NCBI GenBank assembly: GCA_015233395.1
Contig: JADFXV010000029.1
Location: 1-36,054 of the forward strand
DNA: 36,054 nucleotides
Reading direction: 5' to 3'
From: Desulfovibrionaceae bacterium
GTDB taxonomy: Bacteria; Desulfobacterota; Desulfovibrionia; Desulfovibrionales; Desulfovibrionaceae
Below the pieces are notes generated by a model. It was not told the DNA's origin and made no database searches. It saw only the letters and a program-made list of their open reading frames with translations. Shown in pieces: positions 1,076 to 30,368 of the stretch (position 1 is the stretch's first letter; every line of letters begins with the position of its first letter). Both the position numbers and the translations under genes were made by a program.

Positions 1076-3628
1076 TTAGGCCTCGCCTTCGGGAATGACT
1101 TTCCAATTTGCTGAACCGTCGGTTATCGTCGTGGCCTTTATCAACTTGAGGCCGCCGGAGATGCGCCCGGCCTGTCGAAGCAACCAACGCCCCAAGCGCT
1201 TGGAATTGATGTCTCCACGTTCTCCAGCGATCTCTTCAAGGGGCTCTTCCAAGGGTGAATCATCTTCTGACGCAGCCCGTATGATCTCTTTGACGGTCCG
1301 AGGTGTCCGGCCAAACCTGGTATTCCATGCAGCAAGAAGTGTCCGCAGTTGGGCGGCCTCGGGGTCATCGTCCATGATCCCGGTCCGGCTCTCAAATGGA
1401 TCTTCCGCCCCGGCCCAGACCAAGGCGGACCGCACCAGGGATGACCAGCGCTCGAAGCTCCCGAACGGCGTCAACTGCATATCCGGTCGGCCGGCAGCGA
1501 CGTAGCCCCGCACGATGGTCAAGGCCGCGTTCACGTATCCGGACCGATGTTCAAGCGCCCTGGCGACGGGATCAAAGGAGAAGACCCTCTCTTCCGGCCG
1601 CTCCATCTGCGGATCGAGCCGGATCAGAAGCGCCCGCCGCGTCAGATCGCCGGCCAGGACCAAGTTGTTGCCGTTCGCGGCCCACAACGCTGAATTGGGA
1701 ATCTCGGATTGCACGCTCGAACCCAGCGGCCGGACTTTGAGCGTTTCCGCCGTGATTCCCTGACAGAGCAGATCGGACCGCAGCGTCCCGTTCACGTTGT
1801 CCAGATTGACCAGGGCGTCCCCGGCGAGCAGACAGCCGACCAGACGTTTTTCGAGTTCATCCCGGTCAGCCGAGACGGATAAAACCGCGCTGCGCCGACC
1901 CGTGGCGATAACAGCCGCTACGTCCAGGAGTGTAGACTTCCCCGATCCCCGGACCGGGCTGGACGTTGAGAAAAGGGGCACATAGTCCAACGCCGGCCGG
2001 GCCACGGCAGTCAGGATCAAGGCAAGGCCCACGGAGCGATCCACCGGCGAGACGAACGAGAACCCGGCCAAAAGCGCCGTCAGGGATTCCAGGGCTTTCG
2101 CGGCGTCATTCAGGCTGGGTTTGTCTGACACGGCCACCTTGAGGTCATGCGCCAGATAGTAGCCGCTCGCCGGGTCATACCCGGGCTCAAGCAGGAGCGT
2201 TCCATCGGCGCGCACTGTCGGACAGCAGACAACGCCGCGCAGGGCCGGGAATGGCCATTGACCAGACCGGGCCAGAATGGCGTCGGACACGCCACGGGGA
2301 GGATCGACCGCGCGCCACGACTTCTCGCGTTTGTCGAATCGCTGGAATTTGCCATGCCGGGATAAGACCGGCTGCAAAAAGGCCGTGGCCACGGGCATAA
2401 TCACTGCCGCGCCTTGCGGCCGCGCAACACCTTCCGAGAAATCCGCCGCAGGAAGGACCGCAACGCGAACCATTTGCCCGCCGCGCTGAAACACCTTGTC
2501 AGCTATCGGGAGGGCCGGCCGAGCCAGGATCACCTCGCAGGCGTCGACCAGGCGGGCAAGCTCGCCATCGCGGATTTGGACCGTACTGGCGTCATCCTGT
2601 GGACTGTCTTCGGCATCAGGTGAAGCGATAACCGCCGCAAACGCCTCCGGGGACAGCTTGTGCGACTTGATATGCTCACGCACCCGGGCGCTATTCCAGC
2701 CCTCGGCTTCGGCATCGGCCAAATCCCAGCCCTCGGGCGCATCCCTCGGGGGATCAACAATATGGACCTCGGCTGCACCGGCAGCTTTGACCCTGGCGGC
2801 AACTCCCAGAGCAGCTTTCCGCCCTGGTTCGTCCGCATCCGGTCAGATTGCCACGCGGCGGCCCTTCAACGGCGAGAAATCGGCCTTCGATACGGCCTTG
2901 CATCCGCCCGGCCAGGTCAGGACCACGGCCACAGGTAAAAGGCGCTGTGCGGCGTCGGCGGTCTTCTCGCCCTCGACCAGCAAAACCGGCGCATCCGGTT
3001 CTGCATTGGCCAGACGATCCAACCCGTACAAGGGTCGTGGATCGGGGAATGACTTCCAGCGCCAGTGCTTCTGGCCGCTGGAATTTTCAGCGTAGACGAG
3101 CGGGATAATCTCCTTGCGCCCGTCATGCTCAAACCGGCAGACATGGCCCAGGGGTCGCCCTTCACCATTTTTATAGATCCATCGGGCCACAGGGTTGCCA
3201 TGTCTGAAGTGCCTGAAATCCGACTCCGGGGCATCGTCAGGGGCCGGCAGGATAGGCCGCCAATCGTCTTGCTTGGCTTGCGCCTGTACCTGTGGCCGGT
3301 TGCCATTCCCATTCCCATTCCCATTCCCATTGCCGTTATCAATCCCAAGCTCGCGAGCCAGCGCCTTTGCGGCCTCGCCGTGCTTCATCTTGTGGATCGC
3401 GGCATACAGGGAAACTGGGTCGCGGCCCCGATCTTCCCCAGCGAAATCAGCCCAGGAGCCCGTCGTCAGGTTCACGGAACAGGACCGGCCCGGACCGCCG
3501 TTCAAGTCGCCCGTAATGTACTCGTGCCCCTCGACGCGGCCACCAGGCAGCCACCGGGGCAAGAGGTCCTGCAAACGAGAGAGCGCAGCGGCGTTGATCG
3601 AGGCGAAATCGATTCGAGGGCCGGTCAT
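1076..3628 (-). pseudogene. Primase-helicase of the island, split by an in-frame TGA
   Basis: The frame is open for 850 codons except for one TGA at 2845-2843 (codon 262). The N-terminal part has a primase-like region, an Asn-Gly linker at about 98-110 and the first TOPRIM motif, LLVEGEK (217-222). The TGA falls in GRRVAI-stop-PDADEPG, where TOPRIM primases commonly have Trp; the DxD motif (264-266) follows directly in the same frame. The C-terminal part is an AAA/SF3-like helicase with Walker A GSGKST (Lys about 564) and a Walker B-like LVNLDNVNG. TGG to TGA is one base change. A downstream TTG at 2722 could start a 548-residue helicase, but without a convincing ribosome site. A selenocysteine is unlikely here. 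Either a real nonsense mutation or a sequence error; if real, priming is probably lost while a helicase piece might persist. Confidence 0.85.
3304..3333. repeat. Hexanucleotide tract coding an Asn-Gly linker
   Basis: Four perfect CATTCC units and one variant (CATTGC) in tandem encode part of the alternating Asn-Gly run in the primase-helicase. Slippage by whole units would change the linker length without shifting the frame. Confidence 0.85.
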
Positions 3629-3888: not shown

Positions 3889-4149
3889 CTACGCCGCCGC
3901 GCCCGTCTGTCTCGGCACCCTGGGGGCTTCGACCTTGATCCTCGTCGCCAGCCAATCGGCCAGGGCATCGCGGTCATAACAAACCAGCCTGCCGACGCGG
4001 AAAAAGGGCGGCCCTTGGCCTATGCTGGCGAGGTTAGCCATGAAGCCGGGGGAGTAGGGAAATCCTGTTTTTTTCAGGTCGGGTCGCCGGATGATCGGCG
4101 GGGCCTCTTTGCGGAACGTGGCGAGAACGTCTTGAGATTGAGATTGCAT
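3889..4149 (-). CDS. AlpA-type excisionase/regulator (MerR-like HTH)
   Basis: An 86-residue protein with the layout of AlpA/excisionase family proteins: a short N-terminus, then PIIRRPDLKKTGFPYSP (first helix pair), a middle with PPFFRVGRLVCYDRDALADW, the typical strand-strand-helix that places the DNA-binding wing, and a basic end. Such proteins activate integrase or excision genes, or act as excisionases, in P4-like elements. ATG at 4149 is preceded by GGAGAAAC. A large dyad at 4160-4204 lies immediately upstream and is the natural candidate operator. The 84-residue gene and the primase follow within ten bases, so this is probably the first gene of the replication operon. Confidence 0.82.
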   Translation of the reverse strand: MQSQSQDVLATFRKEAPPIIRRPDLKKTGFPYSPGFMANLASIGQGPPFFRVGRLVCYDRDALADWLATRIKVEAPRVPRQTGAAA

Positions 4150-4220: not shown

Positions 4221-4378
4221 GGCGTCATAGACGCCAAGATAGACATGATTTTAGAAGGATACGAAGAGGGTAAGGCGGCTTAACATGCTTAAATTACAGG
4301 ATCAGTAGGGAGTGGCCTCAAATAACAGCCCGGGGGAAATGTCTATCGGGGTCTATCAAAATGTCTATTCGTGTCTAT
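4221..4378. repeat. Iteron-like hexamers, candidate origin or binding region
   Basis: The hexamer ATAGAC occurs at 4227 and 4239 (12 apart), and its complement GTCTAT at 4341, 4351, 4363 and 4373 (10, 12 and 10 apart), close to helical phasing. A perfect GGCGTC-ATA-GACGCC palindrome sits at 4221-4235. This is the only AT-rich non-coding stretch of the island and lies beside the replication operon, as iterons of plasmid or satellite origins do. The last repeat overlaps the stop of the 233-residue gene. Confidence 0.55.
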
Positions 4379-5076
4379 CCTCTATACTTCTTTTTTCTAC
4401 TTGCGGGTCTTGGCAACGGGGGGAGTTTGGGACCAGCAGGATCATGGACCGCGTATTGTTCACCGGCTTCGATACGGCGTGTTACGGTTCTCACAGTTTT
4501 TCCAAGTAGTCTTGCAATTTTCATATTAGTCCAATTCTCTACATGAGACGCATAGTAGGCTTTTACATCTTGCCATTTTTCTGGATTTTCTTGATAAAGT
4601 ATATCCATATATGTCACGTATTGCTCTGACACAGATACATTTTTTGAGTTTGAGTTTAATTGTTTGCCGTCTCCATTCACAGGGACATCCACCGCCTGCG
4701 GCGAATTATCTGAAAGATTTGCCGTTTGTGGTTTACCTAAGAACTTTTCAACATCTTCACGAATAAATATAAATTCCAAAAGATCATCAAAAAACAATTC
4801 TTTGTCTACAAGGTGGCCATTTCTTTGATAACGATCTGGCACTGACGATAAATAGTCTTCTCTGCTCCCAAGGCTATTCCACTCCTCTTGTGGCCAATTC
4901 ATGGCTTGTCTAAGTAAATACTTGTCAACATGAACAAGCGCTTTTGCTGTTCTTTCAGTAGGCTCGCCAAATTTGTTGGTAGCCTTAAGCCCGCGCGCCA
5001 TCCAGAGAACCAATTCAAACGGCTGTAAGTTGTGCTGGATAAGTATCTCTTTCCCCAAAATGCGTTCACTCGACAT
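4375..5076 (-). CDS. 233-residue protein with C-terminal HTH, AT-rich gene
   Basis: ATG at 5076 follows GGGAGG with good spacing. The C-terminal region (about 175-210: WTNMKIARLLGKTVRTVTRR) looks like a helix-turn-helix of the resolvase/sigma type, followed by a basic Pro-rich tail ending RKKKYRG. The first 120 residues have no motif I recognise but are rich in aromatic and acidic residues. The gene is clearly AT-richer than its neighbours and uses A/T-ending codons, which suggests a different origin. Its stop codon lies within the iteron-like repeats, so its product might bind them as a replication initiator or repressor; this is inference. Confidence 0.65.
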   Translation of the reverse strand: MSSERILGKEILIQHNLQPFELVLWMARGLKATNKFGEPTERTAKALVHVDKYLLRQAMNWPQEEWNSLGSREDYLSSVPDRYQRNGHLVDKELFFDDLLEFIFIREDVEKFLGKPQTANLSDNSPQAVDVPVNGDGKQLNSNSKNVSVSEQYVTYMDILYQENPEKWQDVKAYYASHVENWTNMKIARLLGKTVRTVTRRIEAGEQYAVHDPAGPKLPPLPRPASRKKKYRG

Positions 5077-5535: not shown

Positions 5536-5929
5536 GGTTCACCTCGCCAGCCCAGGCCACCGCGATCTCGCGCAAGCGCCTTTTCATCTCCATGTTTTCC
5601 CGCCTCAATTCCAAACCAGCCAAAACGATGTCTTGAAACTCCCGAGCCATGGCCTCGAACCTCTCTAAAAAACAGGTCAAAGCATGGGCGGCCGGATGCT
5701 CCGCGTTGCCTTGGTTGTGATCGGTAGTCCTCACACCGCCCGGGCCACTCTCCAAATCGCAGCGAAGACGCATGACAGCATCATGTTGTGACGGATATTT
5801 TTTCCGAGACCGTTGAAAATCATGCAAGTGGAGTGGCATACCCCGCACGGTAATTTTCCTCGGCAGCGGCCGTGAGGGCAAAAACCACTTGTACAGGTCG
5901 GTACGTGTCGCTAGAGAACGATCAGCCAT
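5528..5929 (-). CDS. 133-residue hypothetical protein
   Basis: A basic protein with an Arg/Lys-rich first half and a likely helical C-terminal half (ALTCFLERFEAMAREF, then RRENMEMKRRLREIAVAW) that may form a coiled coil. It overlaps the next gene downstream by 8 bases. No known domain recognised. The toxin-antitoxin pair lies upstream across a hairpin at 5960-5996, so this gene probably starts its own transcript, although I see no confident promoter. Confidence 0.55.
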   Translation of the reverse strand: MADRSLATRTDLYKWFLPSRPLPRKITVRGMPLHLHDFQRSRKKYPSQHDAVMRLRCDLESGPGGVRTTDHNQGNAEHPAAHALTCFLERFEAMAREFQDIVLAGLELRRENMEMKRRLREIAVAWAGEVNHE

Positions 5930-5959
5930 GATGCACCCCCCTATGGTGTGTTGTGGTTA

Positions 5960-5996
5960 GGCCCTGGTCGGGAGGTAGTGTCTCCCAACCGGGGCC
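5960..5996 (+). terminator. Hairpin with T-run after the toxin-antitoxin pair
   Basis: Arms 5960-5974 and 5982-5996 pair at 14 of 15 positions (one G-T) around a 7-base loop, followed by GTTTTAT on the plus strand. It separates the toxin-antitoxin pair from the unknown genes. The T-run favours action on plus-strand transcripts; on the minus strand it may still protect the 3' end of the antitoxin message. Confidence 0.5.
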
Positions 5997-6030
5997 GTTT
6001 TATGATCTCGCCCACGCTGGGCGGGGTCAG

Positions 6031-6312
6031 CTATTGGCTTTGCTGGAAGTCCAACTTGAGTTTGCTCCCCGTGGCAGCCGCATAGCGCCGCAGGATGTCC
6101 AGGCTTACGTTGCTCCCGGCCTCGATCTTGGCGACGCGGGGCTGACTCACGCCCATGCGCTTGGCCACCTCGGCTTGGGTCAGGCCTGCCCGGCTCCTTG
6201 CCCGGATCATCGCCTGGGCAATGGAGAACTCTTCTTCCAGGGCATCATACTCCCTGGCGTATTCGGCATCCTCACGCATCATGCGCTCGTGAATTTCTTT
6301 GGCGTCGATCAT
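6031..6312 (-). CDS. XRE-family antitoxin (HigA-like)
   Basis: A 93-residue protein with an XRE-type helix-turn-helix at about 36-75 (RAGLTQAEVAKRMGVSQ then RVAKIEAG), the classic HTH_3 pattern, after an acidic N-terminal helix (EYDALEEEFSIAQ). Its ATG overlaps the toxin stop in an ATGA, which fixes this start over one six codons upstream. Family knowledge says it binds and neutralises the toxin and represses the pair. The order is toxin first, as in higBA systems. Confidence 0.85.
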   Translation of the reverse strand: MIDAKEIHERMMREDAEYAREYDALEEEFSIAQAMIRARSRAGLTQAEVAKRMGVSQPRVAKIEAGSNVSLDILRRYAAATGSKLKLDFQQSQ

Positions 6313-6635
6313 AACCCATGCTCCCCGCACCTCTTGAGTGCCAGCTTGATTTCGTCCTGGGGCGTCTGCTGGGCCTTCTTTTCAAAGAACCTCAGCACCA
6401 CGAGACGGCGGCCCGCGACGGCCACATAGAGCCCCCTGGCGATGCCATCCTTCCCCTTGGCCCGCATTTCCCACAACCGGCCCTTCACGGGGCGGGCGTA
6501 GGGCATGACAAGAGCGCTCAAGCCCTCGTCTTGCACCATCCGAAATATCCGCTGGAAGCGGGCGCGGATGTCGGATGGCAGCTGCACAAACTCGGGAACC
6601 GCCTCATCAAGGAATTTTACTGTCCAGGCTTCCAT
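6309..6635 (-). CDS. RelE/HigB-type toxin (Gp49-like)
   Basis: A 108-residue protein of the phage-derived Gp49-like/HigB family. It begins MEAWTVKFLDEAVPEF, has the core RPVKGRLWEMRAKGKDGIARGLY (about 48-70) and the strand RRLVVLRFFEKKAQQTPQDEI typical of ribosome-dependent mRNA interferases of the RelE fold. It sits directly upstream of and overlaps the antitoxin. In an integrated element such a pair usually stabilises inheritance. The ribosome site is weak (AAGGG about 14 bases upstream). Confidence 0.85.
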   Translation of the reverse strand: MEAWTVKFLDEAVPEFVQLPSDIRARFQRIFRMVQDEGLSALVMPYARPVKGRLWEMRAKGKDGIARGLYVAVAGRRLVVLRFFEKKAQQTPQDEIKLALKRCGEHGL

Positions 6636-6685: not shown

Positions 6686-7900
6686 TCAATCCCGGCCGAT
6701 GCGCACCATCTTGCCGCTGCGGCCCTTCTCGAAGGCCTCCAGGTTGGCCACGGCCTCGCGCACATGGTCCGGGGCAAGGTGGCTGTATCGTTCCGTCATG
6801 CTCAAAGTGGAATGCCCCAAGAGCCGCGCCACGGTGTAAAGCGGCGTCCCGGCCATGACGAGCCATGAGGCGTAGGAGTGCCGCAGGGTGTGGAAGCAGA
6901 CCTTCTGGCGGCGGTCTGTGACGCCGTCGTTAAATCCCAGCTTGACGAGGGCGTGGTGGAAGCTCTGGGATACTTGAGGTGAAGGGCGGCCGGTCCTGGC
7001 CGGGAAAACCAAGATTTCAGGCGTATGCGCCTTGGCCTCGCCTTGGCGTCTGGTCAGCATGTCGCGGACCTTGGCGGTCATCGGTATGGAGCGCTGGCCG
7101 TGCTTGGTATCGAGCAGGTGCAGATTGTTGGAATTGAAATCGACATTGCCCCACGTCAGGCCCGCCACCTCGCCCCACCGGCAACCGGAGAACAGCGAGA
7201 GCAGCGCTTGGTCGTGAACATCCTGGGAGTATTCCGCCAGGGTTGCGAGCAGCTGTTCTGCTTCCTCGGGCGACAGGAAACGGACGCGCTGATTGACCAC
7301 CTTCGTCTTGCTCACCTGTTTGGTTGGGGAGTCGCCCGCGAATAGACCTGCCTTGCGAGCGTGGTTGAACATCTGGCGGACCAGCGCCAGGGCGTACTGG
7401 ATCGTCCGGGCGGACCTCCCGACGGCGGCCAAGCGCTTTTTCATGCGCTCCAGGTCGAGCGGCGACACCTGCTTGAGCGGCTTTGATCCCACGGTCGGGG
7501 CAACCCACAGCTTCCACAACTCCTTCTCGCGGCGCATGCTTTTCGGTTTGGTCCCCATGGCCACATCAAGATAGCCGGGCCACAGGTTGGCAAGAGACAA
7601 CTCGGCGCGCGCCGTTTCTGCATCGGCCTGGGCCTTGATCTCGCGCTCGACCTTTGCTTGCTCCCGAGATTCCGCCAGGGTGACAGGCCCCTTGCCCGTG
7701 CGCTTGTTCTCCAGCAACTCTGAAAGCCGAGCCTTGGCCTTTTTCAAATCCCAGCCCTTACTGGCCCACCCGAGTCCTTCCTCGCGCTGCTTTCCGTCCA
7801 GGCGGTAGTAGATGCTGAAATAGCGGTCGAGCCTGACGCCATGTTTGCGGGTCGGATGTTCACGATACCGGATTCCTTCGTCAGCCTTGAACCATTTCAT
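6686..7900 (-). CDS. Tyrosine recombinase, island integrase
   Basis: A 404-residue phage-type integrase. The N-terminal arm-binding part (about 1-90) is followed by a core-binding SAM-like domain (about 100-190) and the catalytic domain with Arg241 (SGCRWGEVAGL), Lys266, His337 and Arg340 (HTLRHSYASW), His363 (LLGHSTLSM) and the nucleophile Tyr372 (ERYSHL); all are present, so it should be active. ATG at 7900 is preceded by GAGGATAA. It is the gene nearest to the tRNA-Lys fragment at 8136-8183, as expected of an integrase that uses that tRNA gene as its target. The weakly structured 7901-8135 stretch to the junction probably holds arm-type sites, which I cannot define. Confidence 0.93.
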   Translation of the reverse strand: MKWFKADEGIRYREHPTRKHGVRLDRYFSIYYRLDGKQREEGLGWASKGWDLKKAKARLSELLENKRTGKGPVTLAESREQAKVEREIKAQADAETARAELSLANLWPGYLDVAMGTKPKSMRREKELWKLWVAPTVGSKPLKQVSPLDLERMKKRLAAVGRSARTIQYALALVRQMFNHARKAGLFAGDSPTKQVSKTKVVNQRVRFLSPEEAEQLLATLAEYSQDVHDQALLSLFSGCRWGEVAGLTWGNVDFNSNNLHLLDTKHGQRSIPMTAKVRDMLTRRQGEAKAHTPEILVFPARTGRPSPQVSQSFHHALVKLGFNDGVTDRRQKVCFHTLRHSYASWLVMAGTPLYTVARLLGHSTLSMTERYSHLAPDHVREAVANLEAFEKGRSGKMVRIGRD

Positions 7901-8135: not shown

Positions 8136-8183
8136 GGACTCTTAATCCGTTGGTTGATGGTTCGAGTCCATCATGTCCCACCA
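8136..8183 (+). other. tRNA-Lys(CTT) 3' fragment, island attachment junction
   Basis: The sequence from GGACTCTTAATCC onward reads as the anticodon arm (anticodon CTT), variable loop, T arm (GATGGTTCGAGTCCATC) and acceptor 3' strand ending CCCACCA. The 5' half of the tRNA is absent: upstream sequence does not pair with the acceptor. This is the displaced 3' end left when an element integrates into a tRNA gene. The intact tRNA should be at the island's unseen left end. Confidence 0.8.
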
Positions 8184-8193
8184 GGTAATTCAG

Positions 8194-8952: not shown

Positions 8953-9629
8953 TCAGGGGGTTATTGGAGAAATTTTTCTCAAGTAGCAGAAAAAACAAAG
9001 ATTTCTTGTGATAACTCTGGTCAGCTATCGGCCAACCATTTTGATGAAGTCGTCAATATGGTCGAATTGGGCTCAGGGGCCAAGAGGGAAGTGGCCGATT
9101 ACAAGCTATCACGCTATGCTTGTTACCTAATCATCCAGAATGGAGACCCCGCAAAGCCTGTCATCGCCAACGGACAGACCTATTTTGCGATCCAAACAAG
9201 GCGTCAAGAAATAAGCGATGACCAGGCGTTTGCTGGACTTCCCGAGGATGAAAGGCGTTTAATGCTACGCAAGGAGATGGCAGAGCATAATAAGGCTCTT
9301 GTCGCTTCCGCCAAGGGTGCAGGAGTCGAGACGACCCTTGATTATGCGATTTTTCAGGACCATGGATACAAGGGGTTATACGGAGGACTTGGGGCTAAAG
9401 ACATCCATGCCCGCAAGGGACTCAAAAAAGTCACAAGATTTTAGATCACATGGGAAGTACAGAACTGGCAGCCAATCTGTTTCGGGCTACTCAAACAGAG
9501 GAAAAACTTCGACGAGACAATATCAAGGGCAAGCAGGCCGCTAATAAGGCCCACCACGAGGTTGGAGCCAAGGTCCGACAGGCGATCAAGGAAATAGGCG
9601 GAACAATGCCTGAAAATCTCCCTACGCCT
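8953..9629 (+). pseudogene. dinD: dinD relic (DNA-damage-inducible protein D family)
   Basis: The conceptual product matches the DinD family: YWRNFSQV near the front, MVELGSGAKRE, SRYACYLIIQNGDPAKPVI, then TYFAIQTRRQE, RLMLRKEMAEHNKAL, DYAIFQDHGYKGLYGG and KDIHARKGLKK. The frame then breaks in a run of six A at 9424-9429; adding one A restores DHMGSTELAANLFRATQTEE and on to MPENLPTP at 9629, after which similarity stops. The N-terminus is also missing: homology begins within 20 bases of the tRNA-Arg relic end. So it is truncated at both ends and frameshifted. A downstream ATG at 9058 gives a 128-residue piece that is unlikely to work. Confidence 0.85.
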
Positions 9630-9771
9630 GCCTTGCACTTTTGGGATAATGGCGGAAAACTTTTCGTTTCGCCTCACCCGAAGGCCTTAGGGCCAGTGCC
9701 CAGCGCCGTTTGCCGCGATCCCGGCCGTCTCGGTCCCCGGTGGTCAATTCAGGGGCGCCGGAGGAACAAAT
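9630..9771. other. Short gap after the dinD relic
   Basis: No gene is seen. It contains a third ATTCAGGGG (9747-9755), the 9-mer that also follows both tRNA 3' ends at 8188 and 8951, which may mark the outer edge of the old insertion. Confidence 0.4.
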
Positions 9772-16763: not shown

Positions 16764-17828
16764 ATGAATGAGACCAAATCCCTGTCCGCGGTGGTCTGCG
16801 CGAACGCCGAGGAAAGCCGGCGCGACCGCGCCAGCCTTACGCGTTTGAATTACGCCCGGGTGGTCTGCTTCGAGGCCGGCCGCGAGGCGTTCGAGTCCCT
16901 GCTGCAGACCCCGGCCGACGTCATCCTGACCGCCTTCGAACTGCGCGACATGAGCGGCGCGACCCTGATCAAAATGCTCAAGGGCGACAGCCGCACGGCC
17001 CATATCCCGGTGATCATGGTCACCCACCGCAACACCAAGGAGACGGTCCTGCGCGCCATTTCGGCCGGCTGCGCGGGGTACGTGCTTCGGCCCTATTCCG
17101 AAAGCGTCCTGCAGCGCCACCTGAACCAGGCCCGGTCCGCCGGCCGGTTCGACGAAATCGAGCGCGAACAATTGGGCCACGCCCGGGAACTCGTGCTCCA
17201 GGGCGATTTCGACGCGGCCATCGACGAATTCTCGGAACTCGCGGCCGCGCCCGAGGACGCCCAGCACTACTTCGACCTCGGGACCAGGTACCTGCTCGAA
17301 CAAAAATACGGCAAATCCATCATCGCCTTCAACAAGGCCATCAAGATCAACGAACTTTTCGCCGAGGCCTACCGGGGGCTGGCCGACGCCTACAAGGGCA
17401 AGGGCGATACCGAAAAATACCAGCAATATCTCAAGCGGGCGGCCGACATTTACGCCTTCCAGGACCGTTTGCAGGAAACCAAGGAGCTCTTCGCCGAAAT
17501 TTTGGCGACCGACGCCTACGCGGTCAATCCGTACAACAATCTGGGCGTGCAACTGCGCCACAAGGGCGATCTGGCCGGGGCGATCCGGGCTTACGCCCGG
17601 GCGTTGGAACTCACCCCGAAAGACGAGAACATCCATTACAACGTCGCCAAGGCCTACCACCTCTCGGGCCAGACCGGCGCCGCCCTGACGGCCATCACGA
17701 GCGCCCTGGAGCTCAATCCTTCCTTTGAAAAGGCGCGCGAAATCTACAGCCTGATCGCCAAACGCGAGTGGCACGTCCCGGCCGAGCCCGGGGGCGGCCG
17801 GATTTCGGAGTCGCTTACCGACGTTTGA
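16764..17828 (+). CDS. Degenerate-receiver TPR protein
   Basis: A 354-residue protein: an N-terminal receiver-like domain (about 8-120) and at least four TPR repeats (about 150-340; for example YFDLGTRYLLEQKYGKSIIA, AEAYRGLADAYKGKGDTEKY, VNPYNNLGVQLRHKGDLAGA). The receiver keeps the fold pattern but lacks the phospho-accepting Asp (Ala57 in VILTAFELRDMSG), the acidic pair (ANAEE) and the conserved Lys (Arg109 in LRPYS), so it probably cannot be phosphorylated in the usual way. TPRs suggest a scaffold. The ribosome site before ATG 16764 is weak. Confidence 0.85.
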   Translation: MNETKSLSAVVCANAEESRRDRASLTRLNYARVVCFEAGREAFESLLQTPADVILTAFELRDMSGATLIKMLKGDSRTAHIPVIMVTHRNTKETVLRAISAGCAGYVLRPYSESVLQRHLNQARSAGRFDEIEREQLGHARELVLQGDFDAAIDEFSELAAAPEDAQHYFDLGTRYLLEQKYGKSIIAFNKAIKINELFAEAYRGLADAYKGKGDTEKYQQYLKRAADIYAFQDRLQETKELFAEILATDAYAVNPYNNLGVQLRHKGDLAGAIRAYARALELTPKDENIHYNVAKAYHLSGQTGAALTAITSALELNPSFEKAREIYSLIAKREWHVPAEPGGGRISESLTDV

Positions 17829-17925: not shown

Positions 17926-18042
17926 TGGAGCATGAAGTTTTTAACTTCATGCTCCATGCTGCGGACGCCGCCTGGCCCCGCGAAGAGCGGGGCCATACTG
18001 ATAAACGGGAGCACGAAAATGAAGAAATTTTCTGCTCCCGTT
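17926..18042. terminator. Three tandem hairpins between convergent genes
   Basis: Hairpin 1: 17926-17939 / 17943-17956, 14 bp perfect, 3-base loop. Hairpin 2: 17973-17981 / 17987-17995, 9 bp perfect. Hairpin 3: 18004-18020 / 18027-18042, 16 pairs with one bulged base. The MTase TAA stop lies at the edge of hairpin 3. They close both the TPR gene and the restriction-modification unit and may mark its boundary. Confidence 0.7.
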
Positions 18043-18688
18043 AATATTTGAGAGGCAACTGAAAGTGCGACGGGTGGGCGGCGGAATGGTTGGCATAGGT
18101 CGGCCAAGTAGGCTCGTATTCCTGCGCCTGATTGCCGAAACCGGTCCACCCCGCCCGCGGGCCTCTTGCGAACAGTTCGAAATAGGGGCCGGGGCTGCAT
18201 GACTCGATGACGCCGTATTGCTCGTCCGGCTTTCTGGAATGTTCCCGCTTTCGGCTGCCGATGAAGTTGACCTGGCTCCTGCCCGGCGGGAGGGTGCGGG
18301 CGTTTTTCCCTTTGGTTCCAAAAAGGATGATTTCCGTCGTGTTTCTGAAATAGAAGCCGACTCCCCGCCCATCCGGGCCGCCGTCTTTGCGTGTTTTATG
18401 CCAGATTAGATTGGTTTTGTAGGTGAATCCCCAGGATTGCAGGACCGAGAGTCCATCCGGGAGCAAGGCGTTGGGAACCCAGAGATACAGATGGGCGACA
18501 TCGGCGGTGATCGCATTGACAGGCAACGACATGATGTCTTTCAGGCTGAGAGTGTCGTACCGGTTGAGCCGCTTGTGTTCGGGCGCCATCTTGCCGGTCC
18601 GGTTGGTGAATTGCCAAGGAGGATCGGCGAGTATGGTCTTAAAACGCGCGCCACCGGCGGCATCGAGTAATTCTTGGTCGAGGCTCAT
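18041..18688 (-). CDS. MT-A70-family DNA adenine methyltransferase
   Basis: A 215-residue MT-A70 family protein with the catalytic motif LADPPWQF (about 21-28), the family run AHLYLWVPNALLPDGL and the later RGVGFYFRNTTEIILFGTKG. Bacterial members are N6-adenine DNA methylases, often in restriction-modification units or phages. ATG at 18688 has GGAGG upstream and overlaps the nuclease stop by ATGA; an ATG 17 codons earlier lacks a ribosome site. Its partner is the BglII-like endonuclease, so it should protect that enzyme's site. The recognition sequence cannot be read from the protein alone. Confidence 0.9.
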   Translation of the reverse strand: MSLDQELLDAAGGARFKTILADPPWQFTNRTGKMAPEHKRLNRYDTLSLKDIMSLPVNAITADVAHLYLWVPNALLPDGLSVLQSWGFTYKTNLIWHKTRKDGGPDGRGVGFYFRNTTEIILFGTKGKNARTLPPGRSQVNFIGSRKREHSRKPDEQYGVIESCSPGPYFELFARGPRAGWTGFGNQAQEYEPTWPTYANHSAAHPSHFQLPLKY

Positions 18689-19284
18689 GATGATTCCTCC
18701 AGGAGTTCCGGCGTCATGCCCAATACAAGTATGGGGCAACCGCCGCTGCGTCCCGCTTCGAGCCGGGGCAGGAGTTTGCCCAGATGCGTGGTGCTGGCGC
18801 CGTACTTTTGGGAAACGGCCTGACCCAGGGACTTAAACCAGGGATCGAGCCGGTCGCTTCGGGTGACGATGACGCCGACGCTGATTTTGTTGAATTCGAA
18901 GAATGTGCGAAAAGCGTACAAGTCCCGGTCGAATGTCTGGTCCTTTGAGTTCCATTCCAAATCGAAAGCGACTCGACCCTTGAGAAAGTCCACCTTGTGG
19001 GTGTCTTGGCGAATTTCCTCGCCGTCCACGACCATGGAGGCCGTGAGCTTTCCTTCCAGCCAACCCAAGGGGCGCATGAGTCCGGACATGGTTTTGGGAA
19101 TCCGGCTTTCATTGCCGCCGCCCGCGAGAACGTCGTCTTTGCGGAAGCGAAAGCGCATCAACGCGCCGCACAATTCCTCGAATTCCAATCGGAACTCGCA
19201 AGAGAGCAACGCTGCGGCATGCCGGTAATCGCGGACTTCATAAAGCCGGGAGATCTCGTCAGGAATGTGGGCTTGCCAAGTCAT
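18685..19284 (-). CDS. BglII/BstYI-like type II restriction endonuclease
   Basis: A 199-residue protein that fits the BglII-like endonuclease family: the central VDFLKGRVAFDLEWNSKDQTFDRDL (about 93-117) has the Asp and Glu positions expected of the metal site, and it is followed by a helix-rich part with YAFRTFFEFNKISVGVIVTRSD. Known members cut AGATCT or RGATCY; whether this one does is untested. The gene is coupled to the methylase by ATGA, with the nuclease first, so methylase dose depends on nuclease translation. Between two convergent hairpin zones it looks like a transferable unit. Confidence 0.75.
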   Translation of the reverse strand: MTWQAHIPDEISRLYEVRDYRHAAALLSCEFRLEFEELCGALMRFRFRKDDVLAGGGNESRIPKTMSGLMRPLGWLEGKLTASMVVDGEEIRQDTHKVDFLKGRVAFDLEWNSKDQTFDRDLYAFRTFFEFNKISVGVIVTRSDRLDPWFKSLGQAVSQKYGASTTHLGKLLPRLEAGRSGGCPILVLGMTPELLEESS

Positions 19285-26235: not shown

Positions 26236-26267
26236 TTGTGCTTATCTCCAGAGGGGTTTTTACAAAA

Positions 26268-27653
26268 ATGGAAACAAGCACTGAAACACCCATCTTCGAC
26301 GAGCGGCGCGACCAGATCCATCGCACCGGCGAGACGCCGTTCGCGATCGCCTGCAACCGCGACAGCCTGGCGGGAGCGGTCAGCCAGAGGGCCTGCGTCT
26401 TTTGCGGGGCGCGCGTGGTGCTTTACCCCATCGCCGACGCCCTGCACCTGGTCCACGGGCCGATCGGCTGCGCCGCCTACACCTGGGACATCCGGGGCGC
26501 GCTTTCCTCGGGGCCCGAACTCCACCGCCTGAGCTTCTCCACCGACCTTCAGGAAAAGGACGTCATCTTCGGCGGGGAAAAAAAGTTGCACCTGGCTCTC
26601 ACCGAGCTCATCGACCGGCATAAGCCCAAGGCCGCGTTCGTCTATTCCACCTGCATCGTCGGCATCATCGGCGACGACTTGGGCGCCGTGTGCCGGCGCG
26701 TGGCCGAAGAAAAGGGCGTTCCGGTTCTGCCCGTGGCCTCCGAAGGCTTCAAGGGCAACAAGCGCGAGGGCTACTACGCCGCCTGCAAGGCCATGTTCGA
26801 CCTGACCGGCACGGGCGACACCGCGGGCATTCCCAAGCTGTCGATCAATATTTTGGGCGATTTCAACCTGGCCGGCGAGATCTGGATCGTGCGCGAGTAT
26901 TTCAAGCGCATGGGCGTGACCGTGGTCGCCAACGTCACCGGCGACGGCCGGGTCGACGACCTGCGCCGCTCGCACGGGGCTTCGCTCAACGTGGTGCAGT
27001 GCTCCGGGGCGACCATCGAACTGGCCAAGCTGATGCAGGAAGCCTACGGCATTCCCTTTTCCCGGGTGTCCTACTTCGGCATCGAGGACATGGCCGAAGC
27101 GCTCTACAGCGTGGCCAGGTTCTTCGAGAAGGACGACCCGGAGATCATGGAGCGGACCAAGACCCTGGTGCGCGAGGAATTCGCCGTGATGTACCCGCAA
27201 CTGACGCAGTATCGCCGCGACCTGGAAGGCAAGAAAGCGGCCATCTACGTCGGCGGGGCGTTCAAGGCCTTTTCCCTGGTCAAGGCCTTCCGCCATCTGG
27301 GCATGAAGACCGTCCTGGTCGGCTCCCAGACCGGCACCGAGGAAGACTACCGGGAACTGGCGGCCGTCACCGATCCGGGCACGATCATCGTCGACGACTC
27401 CAATCCGCTGGAGCTCTCCGCCTTTCTCCAGGAAAAGGAAGTGGACATCTTCGTCGGCGGGGTCAAGGAGCGTCCCATCGCCCACAAGCTGGGCGTCGGT
27501 TTCTGCGACCACAACCACGAACGCAAGGAAGCCCTGGAGGGCTTTGTCGGCATGGTCAATTTCGCCCGCGAGGTCCACGCCTCGGTCATGAGCCCGGTTT
27601 GGCGATTCACGCCCAGGCGCATTCAAATCGCATCGTCAGGGAGCCAGTCATGA
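26268..27653 (+). CDS. nifE: NifE, FeMo-cofactor scaffold subunit
   Basis: A 461-residue NifE: ACVFCGARVVLYPIADALHL, HGPIGCAAYTWDIRG, STDLQEKDVIFGGEKKL, VYSTCIVGIIGDD, VASEGFKGNKREGYYAA and the C-terminal GGVKERPIAHKLGVGF. These match NifE rather than NifD, which would have a longer insertion and its own cofactor ligands. With NifN it forms the scaffold on which the FeMo-cofactor precursor is matured. ATG 26268 is chosen by the promoter. It overlaps nifN by ATGA, so both are coupled. nifHDK are not in the window. Confidence 0.96.
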   Translation: METSTETPIFDERRDQIHRTGETPFAIACNRDSLAGAVSQRACVFCGARVVLYPIADALHLVHGPIGCAAYTWDIRGALSSGPELHRLSFSTDLQEKDVIFGGEKKLHLALTELIDRHKPKAAFVYSTCIVGIIGDDLGAVCRRVAEEKGVPVLPVASEGFKGNKREGYYAACKAMFDLTGTGDTAGIPKLSINILGDFNLAGEIWIVREYFKRMGVTVVANVTGDGRVDDLRRSHGASLNVVQCSGATIELAKLMQEAYGIPFSRVSYFGIEDMAEALYSVARFFEKDDPEIMERTKTLVREEFAVMYPQLTQYRRDLEGKKAAIYVGGAFKAFSLVKAFRHLGMKTVLVGSQTGTEEDYRELAAVTDPGTIIVDDSNPLELSAFLQEKEVDIFVGGVKERPIAHKLGVGFCDHNHERKEALEGFVGMVNFAREVHASVMSPVWRFTPRRIQIASSGSQS

Positions 27654-29047
27654 TCCAGGCCGCCAAGGAACCGTACGTTTCCACGACCAACGCCTGCAAG
27701 CTGTGCAAGCCGCTCGGCGCCGCCCTGGTCTTTCGGGGCGTCGAGGGCGCGGTGCCCTTCCTGCACGGCTCGCAGGGCTGCGCCACCTACATGCGCCGCT
27801 ATATCATCAGCCATTTCCGCGAGCCCATGGACATCGCCTCCTCGGCGCTCTCGGAAAAGCACGCCGTGTTCGGCGGCGGCCCCAACCTCAAAAAAGGCCT
27901 GCTCACGGTCATGCAGAAATACGGGGCCAAGCTCGTGGGCGTGGCCAGCACCTGCCTGACCGAAACCATCGGCGACGACATGCCCGGGCTGGTGCGCGAA
28001 TTCAGAAACGAGTTCGCCGATCTCGGCCTGCCCGAGGTGGTCACCGTGAGCACGCCGTCGTACTCCGGCACCCACGCCGAGGGCTTCCACGCGGCGGTCA
28101 AGGCTTTGGTCGAGCAGCTCGCCGTGCCGGACGAATCGGGCGTACCGGGCGAATCGGGCGAATCGGGCGAAGCTGGCCTGGCCGTCAATCTGCTGCCGGG
28201 CTTCGTCTCGCCGGCGGACATCCGCTACCTGGCGGAGATTTTCGACGATTTCTGCCTGCCGGTGACCATTTTGCCCGACATTTCGGAGACGCTCGACGGT
28301 CCGGCGCTCGACGAATACCAGAAGATTCCCGAAGGCGGCACGCCGATCGCCGCCATCCGGGCCATGGGACGGTCAGCGGCCACCATCGAATGCGGCCGGA
28401 CCCTGTTCGGCGTGGAAAGCGCCGGCGAGGTTTTGGAAAAACGCCGCCAGGTTCCGCTGTTCAAGCGCGGCCTGCCCATCGGCCTGCGCGAGACCGACTC
28501 CTTTTTCAGCGTCCTTGAGACCCTGGCCGGGGCGCAGATGCCCCGCCGGCACGCCCTGGAGCGCGGCCGGCTCATCGACGCCTACGTGGACGCCCATAAA
28601 TACCTCTTCGGCAAACGGGCCGTGCTCTACGGCGAGGAGGACCTGGTCATCGGGCTGACGAGCTTTCTCACCGAAATCGGCGTGAAGCCGGTGCTGGTCG
28701 CCTCGGGCGGCAATTCCGGCAAACTCGAGGAAGCGGTCAAGTCGGTGACCAGCGGCATCCTGGGAGAAGCGCCAGAGACCGCCGCCGGAACGGATTTTTA
28801 CCAGATCGCGGCCCGGGCCAAGGAGCTCGCCCCGGACCTGATCGTCGGCAATTCCAAAGGCTACCGCATGGCCAAGGAACTGGACGCGCCGCTGGTGCGC
28901 GCCGGTTTTCCCATCCACGACCGCTTCGGCGGACAGCGCATCCTGCACCTGGGCTACCGGGGGGCGCAGGCGCTTCTGGACACGATCGTCAACGCGTTGC
29001 TCGACAAAAAACAAGCCGGTTCGGAAATCGGCTACGGATACATCTAG
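27650..29047 (+). CDS. nifN: NifN, FeMo-cofactor scaffold subunit
   Basis: A 465-residue NifN: STTNACKLCKPLGAALVFRG, FLHGSQGCATYMRRY, SSALSEKHAVFGGGPNL, ASTCLTETIGDDMPG and a C-terminal VGNSKGYRMAKELDAPLVRAGFP region near GFPIHDRFGGQRILHLGYRG. It pairs with NifE as the cofactor assembly scaffold. A small low-complexity stretch (about 160-172; ESGVPGESGESGEAG) is encoded by tandem GAATCGGGC units (28132-28173) and is a likely insertion in a loop. The ATG overlaps the nifE stop. nifB follows 46 bases later. Confidence 0.95.
   Translation: MIQAAKEPYVSTTNACKLCKPLGAALVFRGVEGAVPFLHGSQGCATYMRRYIISHFREPMDIASSALSEKHAVFGGGPNLKKGLLTVMQKYGAKLVGVASTCLTETIGDDMPGLVREFRNEFADLGLPEVVTVSTPSYSGTHAEGFHAAVKALVEQLAVPDESGVPGESGESGEAGLAVNLLPGFVSPADIRYLAEIFDDFCLPVTILPDISETLDGPALDEYQKIPEGGTPIAAIRAMGRSAATIECGRTLFGVESAGEVLEKRRQVPLFKRGLPIGLRETDSFFSVLETLAGAQMPRRHALERGRLIDAYVDAHKYLFGKRAVLYGEEDLVIGLTSFLTEIGVKPVLVASGGNSGKLEEAVKSVTSGILGEAPETAAGTDFYQIAARAKELAPDLIVGNSKGYRMAKELDAPLVRAGFPIHDRFGGQRILHLGYRGAQALLDTIVNALLDKKQAGSEIGYGYI
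28132..28173 (+). repeat. 9-bp tandem units in nifN
   Basis: Four units close to GAATCGGGC (one as GTACCGGGC) encode a Gly-Glu-Ser linker inside NifN. Unit gain or loss keeps the frame. Confidence 0.75.
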
Positions 29048-29093
29048 GCCGCCAGACGGCCCCGCCAGTTAGACAAACGCCAAGGGGAACACC

Positions 29094-30368
29094 ATGTCTC
29101 ACGCACCCGTCGACACCAGCCTGCACCCCTGCTTCAACGAGAAGGTCAAGGGAACGCGGGCGCGCATCCACCTGCCGGTCGCGCCCAAGTGCAACCTGAT
29201 GTGCAATTTCTGCAACCGCAAATACGACTGCGTCAACGAATCGCGCCCGGGCGTGACGAGCGCCGTGCTCTCGCCGGCCCAGGCGGAGAGCTACCTGGCC
29301 ATGGCCCTTGAGCGCGAACCGAGGATCTCGGTGGCCGGCATCGCCGGACCCGGCGACCCCTTCGCCAACGCCCGCGAAACCCTGGACACCTGCCGGCGCA
29401 TCCGCAACCGCTGGCCGGAGATGATTCTGTGCCTGGCCACCAACGGCCTGGAACTGGGCGATCACCTCGACGAGGTGGCCGAGATCGGCGTCTCGCACGT
29501 GACCGTGACCGTCAACGCCGTCGATCCGGAGATCGCCGCGAAAATTTATTCCTGGGCCAGGCTGGGCAAGGTCCTCTACCGGGGCGCCGACGCCGGGGCC
29601 GCGCTTTTGTCCCGGCAGGGCGACGCCATCAAGGGGCTCAAGGAGCGCGGCGTGATCGTCAAGGCCAACACCATCGTCATCCCGGGGGTCAACGACCACC
29701 ACGTGGAGGCCGTGGCCCGGCGCATGCGCGAGCTCGGCGCGGACATGCTCAACTGCATTCCCATGCACCCCAACAAGGACACCAAGTTCGAGGACGTCCC
29801 GGAACCGGCCAAGGAAATGATGGCCGCGCTGCGCGACACGGCCGAAGCCTACCTGCCCCAGATGCGCCATTGCAAGCGCTGCCGCGCCGACGCCGTGGGC
29901 TTGCTCGATTCCGACCGTTCCGGGGAATTCGCGGGACTGCTCGGCGCCTGCTCGCGCTCCGCGCCCACGATCGACGAAGCCAGGCCTTACGTGGCCGTGG
30001 CCAGCCTGGAGGGGCTCTTGGTCAACCAACACCTGGGCGAAGCCGGGCGCTTTCTTGTTTTCGCCAAAAAAGACGACGGCTACGCCCTGGTCGAGGAACG
30101 GCAGGCTCCGGCCTCCGGGGCCGGCCCGAACCGCTGGTACGCCCTGGCCGAGGCGCTGAAGGACTGCCGCGCCGTGCTGGTGGCCGCGGCCGGAGAAACG
30201 CCCAAGGCCGTGCTCACGGAGGAAGGACTCACGGTCGTGGAAATGAACGGACTGATCGACCAGGGACTGCGCGCGGTATACGAAACCGGCGACTTCGCCG
30301 GTCTGGCCAAGCGCTCGGGCAAAGGCTGCTGCGGCGGCCTCAAGGGCGGCGGCTTCGGCTGCGGTTGA
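29094..30368 (+). CDS. nifB: NifB, radical-SAM NifB-cofactor maturase with NifX-like tail
   Basis: A 424-residue NifB. The radical-SAM motif is CNLMCNFC (33-40, Cx3Cx2C) followed by NRKYDC. The SAM domain continues to about residue 270 with GPGDPF and NTIVIPGVNDHHVE, and Cys cluster residues lie in RHCKRCRADAVG. Residues about 295-410 are a NifX/NafY-type domain (YVAVASLEGLLVNQHLGEAG), as in many NifB proteins, and the tail is Cys-Gly-rich (CCGGLKGGGFGCG). NifB builds the 8Fe-core cluster given to NifEN. The GGGGAAC ribosome site precedes ATG 29094. Confidence 0.96.
   Translation: MSHAPVDTSLHPCFNEKVKGTRARIHLPVAPKCNLMCNFCNRKYDCVNESRPGVTSAVLSPAQAESYLAMALEREPRISVAGIAGPGDPFANARETLDTCRRIRNRWPEMILCLATNGLELGDHLDEVAEIGVSHVTVTVNAVDPEIAAKIYSWARLGKVLYRGADAGAALLSRQGDAIKGLKERGVIVKANTIVIPGVNDHHVEAVARRMRELGADMLNCIPMHPNKDTKFEDVPEPAKEMMAALRDTAEAYLPQMRHCKRCRADAVGLLDSDRSGEFAGLLGACSRSAPTIDEARPYVAVASLEGLLVNQHLGEAGRFLVFAKKDDGYALVEERQAPASGAGPNRWYALAEALKDCRAVLVAAAGETPKAVLTEEGLTVVEMNGLIDQGLRAVYETGDFAGLAKRSGKGCCGGLKGGGFGCG

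Follow-up and report, generated by a model that had tools for sequence, protein, structure and literature searches.

A probable recent nonsense codon in the TOPRIM core of the primase-helicase gene of a tRNA-Lys(CUU) island in a Desulfovibrionaceae bacterium

A mobile island and its gene content

The window considered here is the whole analysed stretch of 36,054 nucleotides from a Desulfovibrionaceae bacterium (contig JADFXV010000029.1). Judging by gene content, a mobile island of the integrase/int-alpA kind lies at its beginning, encoded on the minus strand and inserted at tRNA-Lys(CUU), and the primase-helicase gene described below belongs to it. From the contig start inwards, and always on the minus strand, the island comprises an ERCC4-domain nuclease gene (388-846; Pfam ERCC4, E 1.2e-10), the primase-helicase frame (1076-3628), a gene for a small protein without Pfam match in the position of an AlpA or excisionase gene (3889-4149), a candidate for AlpA, and a probable regulator (4375-5076) with only a sub-threshold match to Sigma70_r4_2. 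These are followed by an int-alpA RNA (RF02996; 5096-5164; 64.4 bits, gathering score 35.8), a toxin-antitoxin-like pair (6031-6635) made up of an HTH protein (6031-6330) and a Gp49-family protein (6309-6635), the latter presumably of the HigB type, and a phage-type integrase of 404 amino acids, free of internal stops (6686-7900; Pfam Phage_integrase, E 1.9e-28). A sub-threshold match to an R1162-like plasmid antisense RNA (RF00043; 40.8 bits, gathering score 55, E 0.00024) lies where one of the uncharacterised island genes begins (5922-5997, minus strand).

Beyond the integrase, at 8136-8192 on the plus strand, the 3' portion of tRNA-Lys(CUU) is repeated, 98% identical over 57 bases to the intact gene located on contig C96; this is probably one copy of the attachment site. 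The contig begins within the island, whose other end was not found in the 2.4 kb that follow the intact tRNA on C96, where the main match (72% over 523 bases) corresponds to positions 9107-9628 of the window, outside the island. An integrase and a candidate attachment site are present, as for a phage-satellite island (PICI or P4-like). Beside the attachment-site copy, positions 8959-9695 hold a decayed remnant in two frames, presumably DinD-like, with 70-73% identity to an open gene on C96 that is situated just downstream of the intact tRNA-Lys; this remnant perhaps derives from another element inserted at that tRNA.

The int-alpA RNA was also detected in two of the seven relatives' neighbourhoods searched (L119 and L120, the match in L120 being exactly at the gathering score). 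These islands are alike in joining an integrase to RF02996, but the matched primase region of neither L119 nor L120 contains a stop, unlike that of the window.

An in-frame TGA between the TOPRIM catalytic residues

The primase-helicase frame, read on the minus strand from 3628 to 1076, contains 851 codons including the final stop, and stop codons occur in it only at codon 262 and at codon 851, a terminal TAA. The internal one (2843-2845) is TCA on the plus strand and hence TGA on the minus strand. The motif LLVEGEK, with E219, lies 5' of it, and PDADEPG, with D264 and D266, follows directly in the same frame (locally RRVAI-stop-PDADEPG), so that the TGA falls between the TOPRIM glutamate and the aspartate pair, a pair of the type that has a catalytic role in TOPRIM domains. 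The initial annotation had described precisely this, a frame of about 850 codons broken only by a TGA at codon 262, with EGEK before it and DADEPG right after it, and both statements stand. Across an alignment of 26 sequences, in which the window's row has the TGA read as Trp, E219 and both aspartates never vary, and residue 262 falls in the class conserved at 90% or more. At third codon positions, G+C amounts to 0.716 upstream of the stop and 0.706 downstream, with a lower value, 0.614, in residues 263-350. A hexanucleotide repeat at 3303-3332 encodes an Asn-Gly run in the primase linker; because the repeat unit is six, it would be unable to shift the frame.

We regard the frame as a real gene and not a chance open frame, since its three best relatives match residues 7-845 without any internal stop (52-53% identity; 51-52% by tblastn). 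Pfam, PHROG and alignment motifs together point to an N-terminal part, a TOPRIM domain and a P-loop module. DUF6371 covers residues 180-264 above the cut-off, and Toprim_3 gives a weak match, below the cut-off, at residues 217-306. The best PHROG match, over residues 306-843, is a family of unknown function, and the other matching families are annotated as DNA primase or DNA primase/helicase in the N-terminal half and as DNA polymerase/primase over residues 451-845. The P-loop (GSGKS, residues 561-565, from the alignment) stands in the C-terminal half. Searches against solved structures, with one sequence and with profiles, returned nothing better than E 0.1.

The two halves of the protein are swappable: some relatives match only about residues 1 to 340 and others only about 302 to 848, the module junction lying near residues 300-350. 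Furthermore, helicase-only ORFs of 580 amino acids (L010) and 540 amino acids (L023), their starts being chosen mechanically, exist among the relatives, and in other relatives the helicase module carries a different N-terminal part; of the 12 sequences in alignment A1, one has a Prim-Pol domain. Such arrangements would be in keeping with a deliberately split gene, that is, a primase fragment and a separate helicase, both of them useful. However, the break lies inside the TOPRIM core, between catalytic residues and away from the module junction, and for this reason a split was rejected; we give it practically no credence.

In the host's family, 25 of the 149 genomes match the gene at E 1e-20 or better, the window's own included, and among these only the window's own has a TGA within the match. 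At the level of the class, matches to the N-terminal 311 residues come from 40 of 348 genomes, the window's own again among them; TGA is found in none of the 48 relative rows of this comparison, and TAA in two, aligned with residues 9 and 201, from which it follows that broken copies occur in this primase-helicase family. The residue aligned with codon 262 was counted in fetched loci covering residues 256-270, one row being taken per distinct aligned sequence and leaving aside those of the 48 rows without a fetched locus as well as plasmid- and phage-collection matches. The resulting 30 rows are 27 with Trp, two with Leu and the window's stop, and among the 29 distinct relatives there is neither a Cys nor a stop at this position. 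The initial annotation's statement that Trp is common at this place in TOPRIM primases is therefore well founded, and homologues ending naturally at this point, which it had named as evidence to the contrary, were not encountered among those 29. In the plasmid and phage collections the relatives are below 60% identity and none spans 80% of the query in one place, and a scan of viral contigs for the TGA site with either purine gave no match.

Since the frame is open but for this one codon, the assembly is a draft of 158 contigs (98.9% complete) and the genome has no second copy for comparison, the TGA might be an error of sequencing, culture or assembly, the organism's gene having no stop here. 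Nevertheless, the TGA site is outside any homopolymer run, and genes of the same contig with SecA, AA-kinase/PUA (ProB-like) and glutamyl-tRNA reductase domains are full-length and without internal stops. Intact genes of core function nearby make poor sequence less likely, and we consider an error improbable, an estimate that is a matter of judgement.

Possible decoding of the TGA by the host

General recoding of UGA to Trp is unlikely, and was rejected in view of the release factor, the tRNAs and the use of TGA as a terminal stop. The host has RF2 (prfB, 481 bits, cut-off 370), and TGA closes 11 of the 26 ORFs counted in the window and four of the 10 counted in the island. Moreover, the gene contains 17 TGG codons and one internal TGA, not the several in-frame TGAs that such recoding would lead one to expect. 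The tRNA survey gave 44 matches plus a tRNA-Sec; one match at a contig edge, uncalled by ARAGORN, was read by eye as Thr (CGU). A suppressor, whose presence the initial annotation had proposed to check, did not come to light: no tRNA-Trp(UCA) was found, the UCA anticodon occurring only in tRNA-Sec, in a tRNA set that is incomplete, as no tRNA-Ile(GAU) is among the matches. Because of this incompleteness a suppressor tRNA may exist unassembled, which we count against reading the codon as a plain nonsense mutation.

Another way of passing the codon would be leaky readthrough by tRNA-Trp, producing a little full-length primase, enough for replication of the island, and possibly acting as a brake. 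A near-cognate tRNA-Trp would insert the same residue that the relatives have, and among the stop codons of E. coli and Salmonella it is UGA that leaks most according to a portion of PMC4989110, with readthrough of at least 1e-2 to 1e-3. In contrast, the tRNA-Trp(CCA) of this host has A9, G24 and a U27-G43 wobble, which is the top pair of the anticodon stem (positions numbered by hand from the ARAGORN drawing). According to a section of PMC13092985, reading of UGA in E. coli rose when the top pair was unpinned, but C27U was the only variant without a rise in flexibility in the simulation. Furthermore, since none of the 48 relative rows shares the TGA, nothing suggests that it has been selected for. 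Taken with these points, leaky readthrough as a working mode of the gene seems very unlikely.

The host also possesses the machinery for selenocysteine, namely a tRNA-Sec (85.7 bits), SelB (340.5 bits, cut-off 242.25) and a formate dehydrogenase gene with an in-frame TGA, which makes recoding as Sec worth testing; two other matches just above the tRNA-Sec cut-off are called Ser tRNAs by ARAGORN. The TGA of the primase-helicase is followed, 24 nt further on, by a hairpin with a 9-bp stem and the loop AAAG (2795-2845 with the TGA, minus strand; -22.9 kcal/mol over 51 nt), which would have to act as a SECIS element. The presumed SECIS hairpin of the host's formate dehydrogenase is of similar build (9 bp, loop GGC, 23 nt) and agrees with the bacterial consensus. 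The latter, as set out in a part of PMC13188914 that includes the legend of its Fig. 2A, consists of a loop of 3-9 nt, a stem of 4-16 bp, a G in the first two loop positions, a spacing of 16-37 nt and an energy of -7.5 kcal/mol or lower. Spacing, stem and energy of the primase hairpin are within these limits, but there is no G in the first two positions of its loop. The search for Sec machinery and a SECIS-like hairpin that the initial annotation had suggested thus had a mixed outcome: the machinery exists, and so does a hairpin at a suitable distance, lacking the loop G.

The weight of this hairpin has to be seen against its surroundings. Among the 29 sequences folded at the site, the window's and those of 28 relatives (mean -15.2 kcal/mol, sd 3.4), its energy is the lowest, and this greater stability is counted against the nonsense interpretation. 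Within the gene, 27 of 834 codon windows are at least as low in energy, the hairpin's own included; its z-score is -3.1 with 200 shuffles and -2.4 with 60, and 38 of the 834, again with its own, have an equal or lower z. Stems of at least 9 bp at the hairpin's spacing occur in 19 of the 834. As for the SECIS structure rules, 377 of the 834 codon windows conform to them when the G rule is left out and 186 when it is applied, and at 16 ordinary Trp codons the corresponding counts are 12 and seven. Structure alone is a weak test for SECIS.

Like the selenoprotein genes for bacterial formate dehydrogenase, the primase-helicase gene has an in-frame TGA and then a 9-bp hairpin at about 24 nt; unlike them, it lacks both the loop G and Cys homologues. 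It must be considered that a subset of real bacterial SECIS elements falls outside the consensus, as a passage of PMC13188914 states, and that a program based on the consensus missed at least 13% of the known selenoprotein genes in one test described in part of PMC12013277. Nevertheless, Sec decoding of the TGA is unlikely because none of the 29 relatives has Cys at this position; selenocysteine was rejected on this point together with the loop, and the complete proposal, a TGA read as Sec with the 3' hairpin as SECIS, we hold to be extremely improbable. The selenocysteine variant of the initial annotation's readthrough option merited a test, given the Sec machinery of the host, but finds no support in the loop or in the homologues. 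Whether Trp was inserted by a near-cognate tRNA or Sec by its own, the idea that production of the primase depends entirely on rare decoding of UGA appears highly improbable; were it true, the translation state of the host or its selenium supply would gate the replication of a mobile element.

Probable loss of the primase, comparable elements and neighbouring loci

The stop in the primase most probably reflects a plain and recent loss of function, not a special mode of decoding. In the interpretation that we consider very probable, a nonsense codon has arisen recently in the TOPRIM primase-helicase of the tRNA-Lys(CUU) island, at a position of the TOPRIM core where Trp is conserved. In its favour are the single internal stop in 851 codons, the lack of a stop at the site in all 29 relatives, the loss of D264 and D266, invariant in 26 sequences, that such a stop entails, and the decayed gene adjoining the attachment-site copy. 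The 588 codons 3' of the TGA contain no second lesion, which counts against decay beyond the single stop. The very recent loss that the initial annotation had offered as one possibility fits well with one stop, no further lesion and a downstream codon bias that is kept overall.

Normal termination at the TGA would yield an N-terminal fragment of 261 amino acids (2846-3628, minus strand) without the aspartate pair. TOPRIM catalysis would then be lost, with priming absent or only at the level of background readthrough, and because the fragment lacks the pair, the island would be unable to start its own replication, or would do so only at trace level. Given the leakiness of UGA in E. coli and Salmonella, a certain amount of full-length protein may be made, and this is counted against a simple nonsense codon. 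The integrase and the other island genes are still open, as is the helicase module. The helicase half may be made from a downstream start: a product of 548 amino acids from a TTG at 2722 (residue 303; 1076-2722, minus strand), with GAGG just upstream, is plausible, and helicase-only products are conceivable because helicase-only ORFs exist in relatives.

The likeness of this gene to PICI pri-rep and to the P4 alpha protein is one of role and place. As portrayed in portions of PMC6092414 and PMC8628076, those integrated elements combine an integrase, an AlpA-type regulator and a large primase-helicase; the island of the window has an integrase, a candidate AlpA gene and a primase-helicase gene, the last of which is interrupted. 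As to what such an interruption may cost, transfer of an E. coli PICI with pri-rep deleted was in the tens, compared with about 1e5 for a differently marked island, in the experiment described in part of PMC6092414. Among P4-like satellites, a section of PMC8628076 reports an alpA pseudogene in 98% of the variants lacking alpA. These pseudogenes resemble the present case in that early stops break an island gene in otherwise recognisable elements; they are, however, frameshifts in alpA, whereas here there is one nonsense codon in the primase. A literature search found no comparable case. The locus would offer a clear-cut case of an integrated island with a replication gene apparently inactivated by one nonsense codon and an integrase that is still open. 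In turn, for hosts that use Sec, it argues for checking an in-frame TGA against the SECIS loop rule and the homologues' residue before a gene is called a pseudogene.

Further along the window, a gene for a BglII-type restriction endonuclease adjoins an MT-A70 methylase gene (18041-19284, minus strand), and the two likely form a restriction-modification pair. At 26238-30368 the plus strand encodes two proteins of the nitrogenase component 1 type, together with a radical SAM protein that has a dinitrogenase cofactor domain. In one of the relatives (L116), CRISPR repeats (CRISPR-DR4) are found at 16806-17434, about 5.6 kb from its primase gene.
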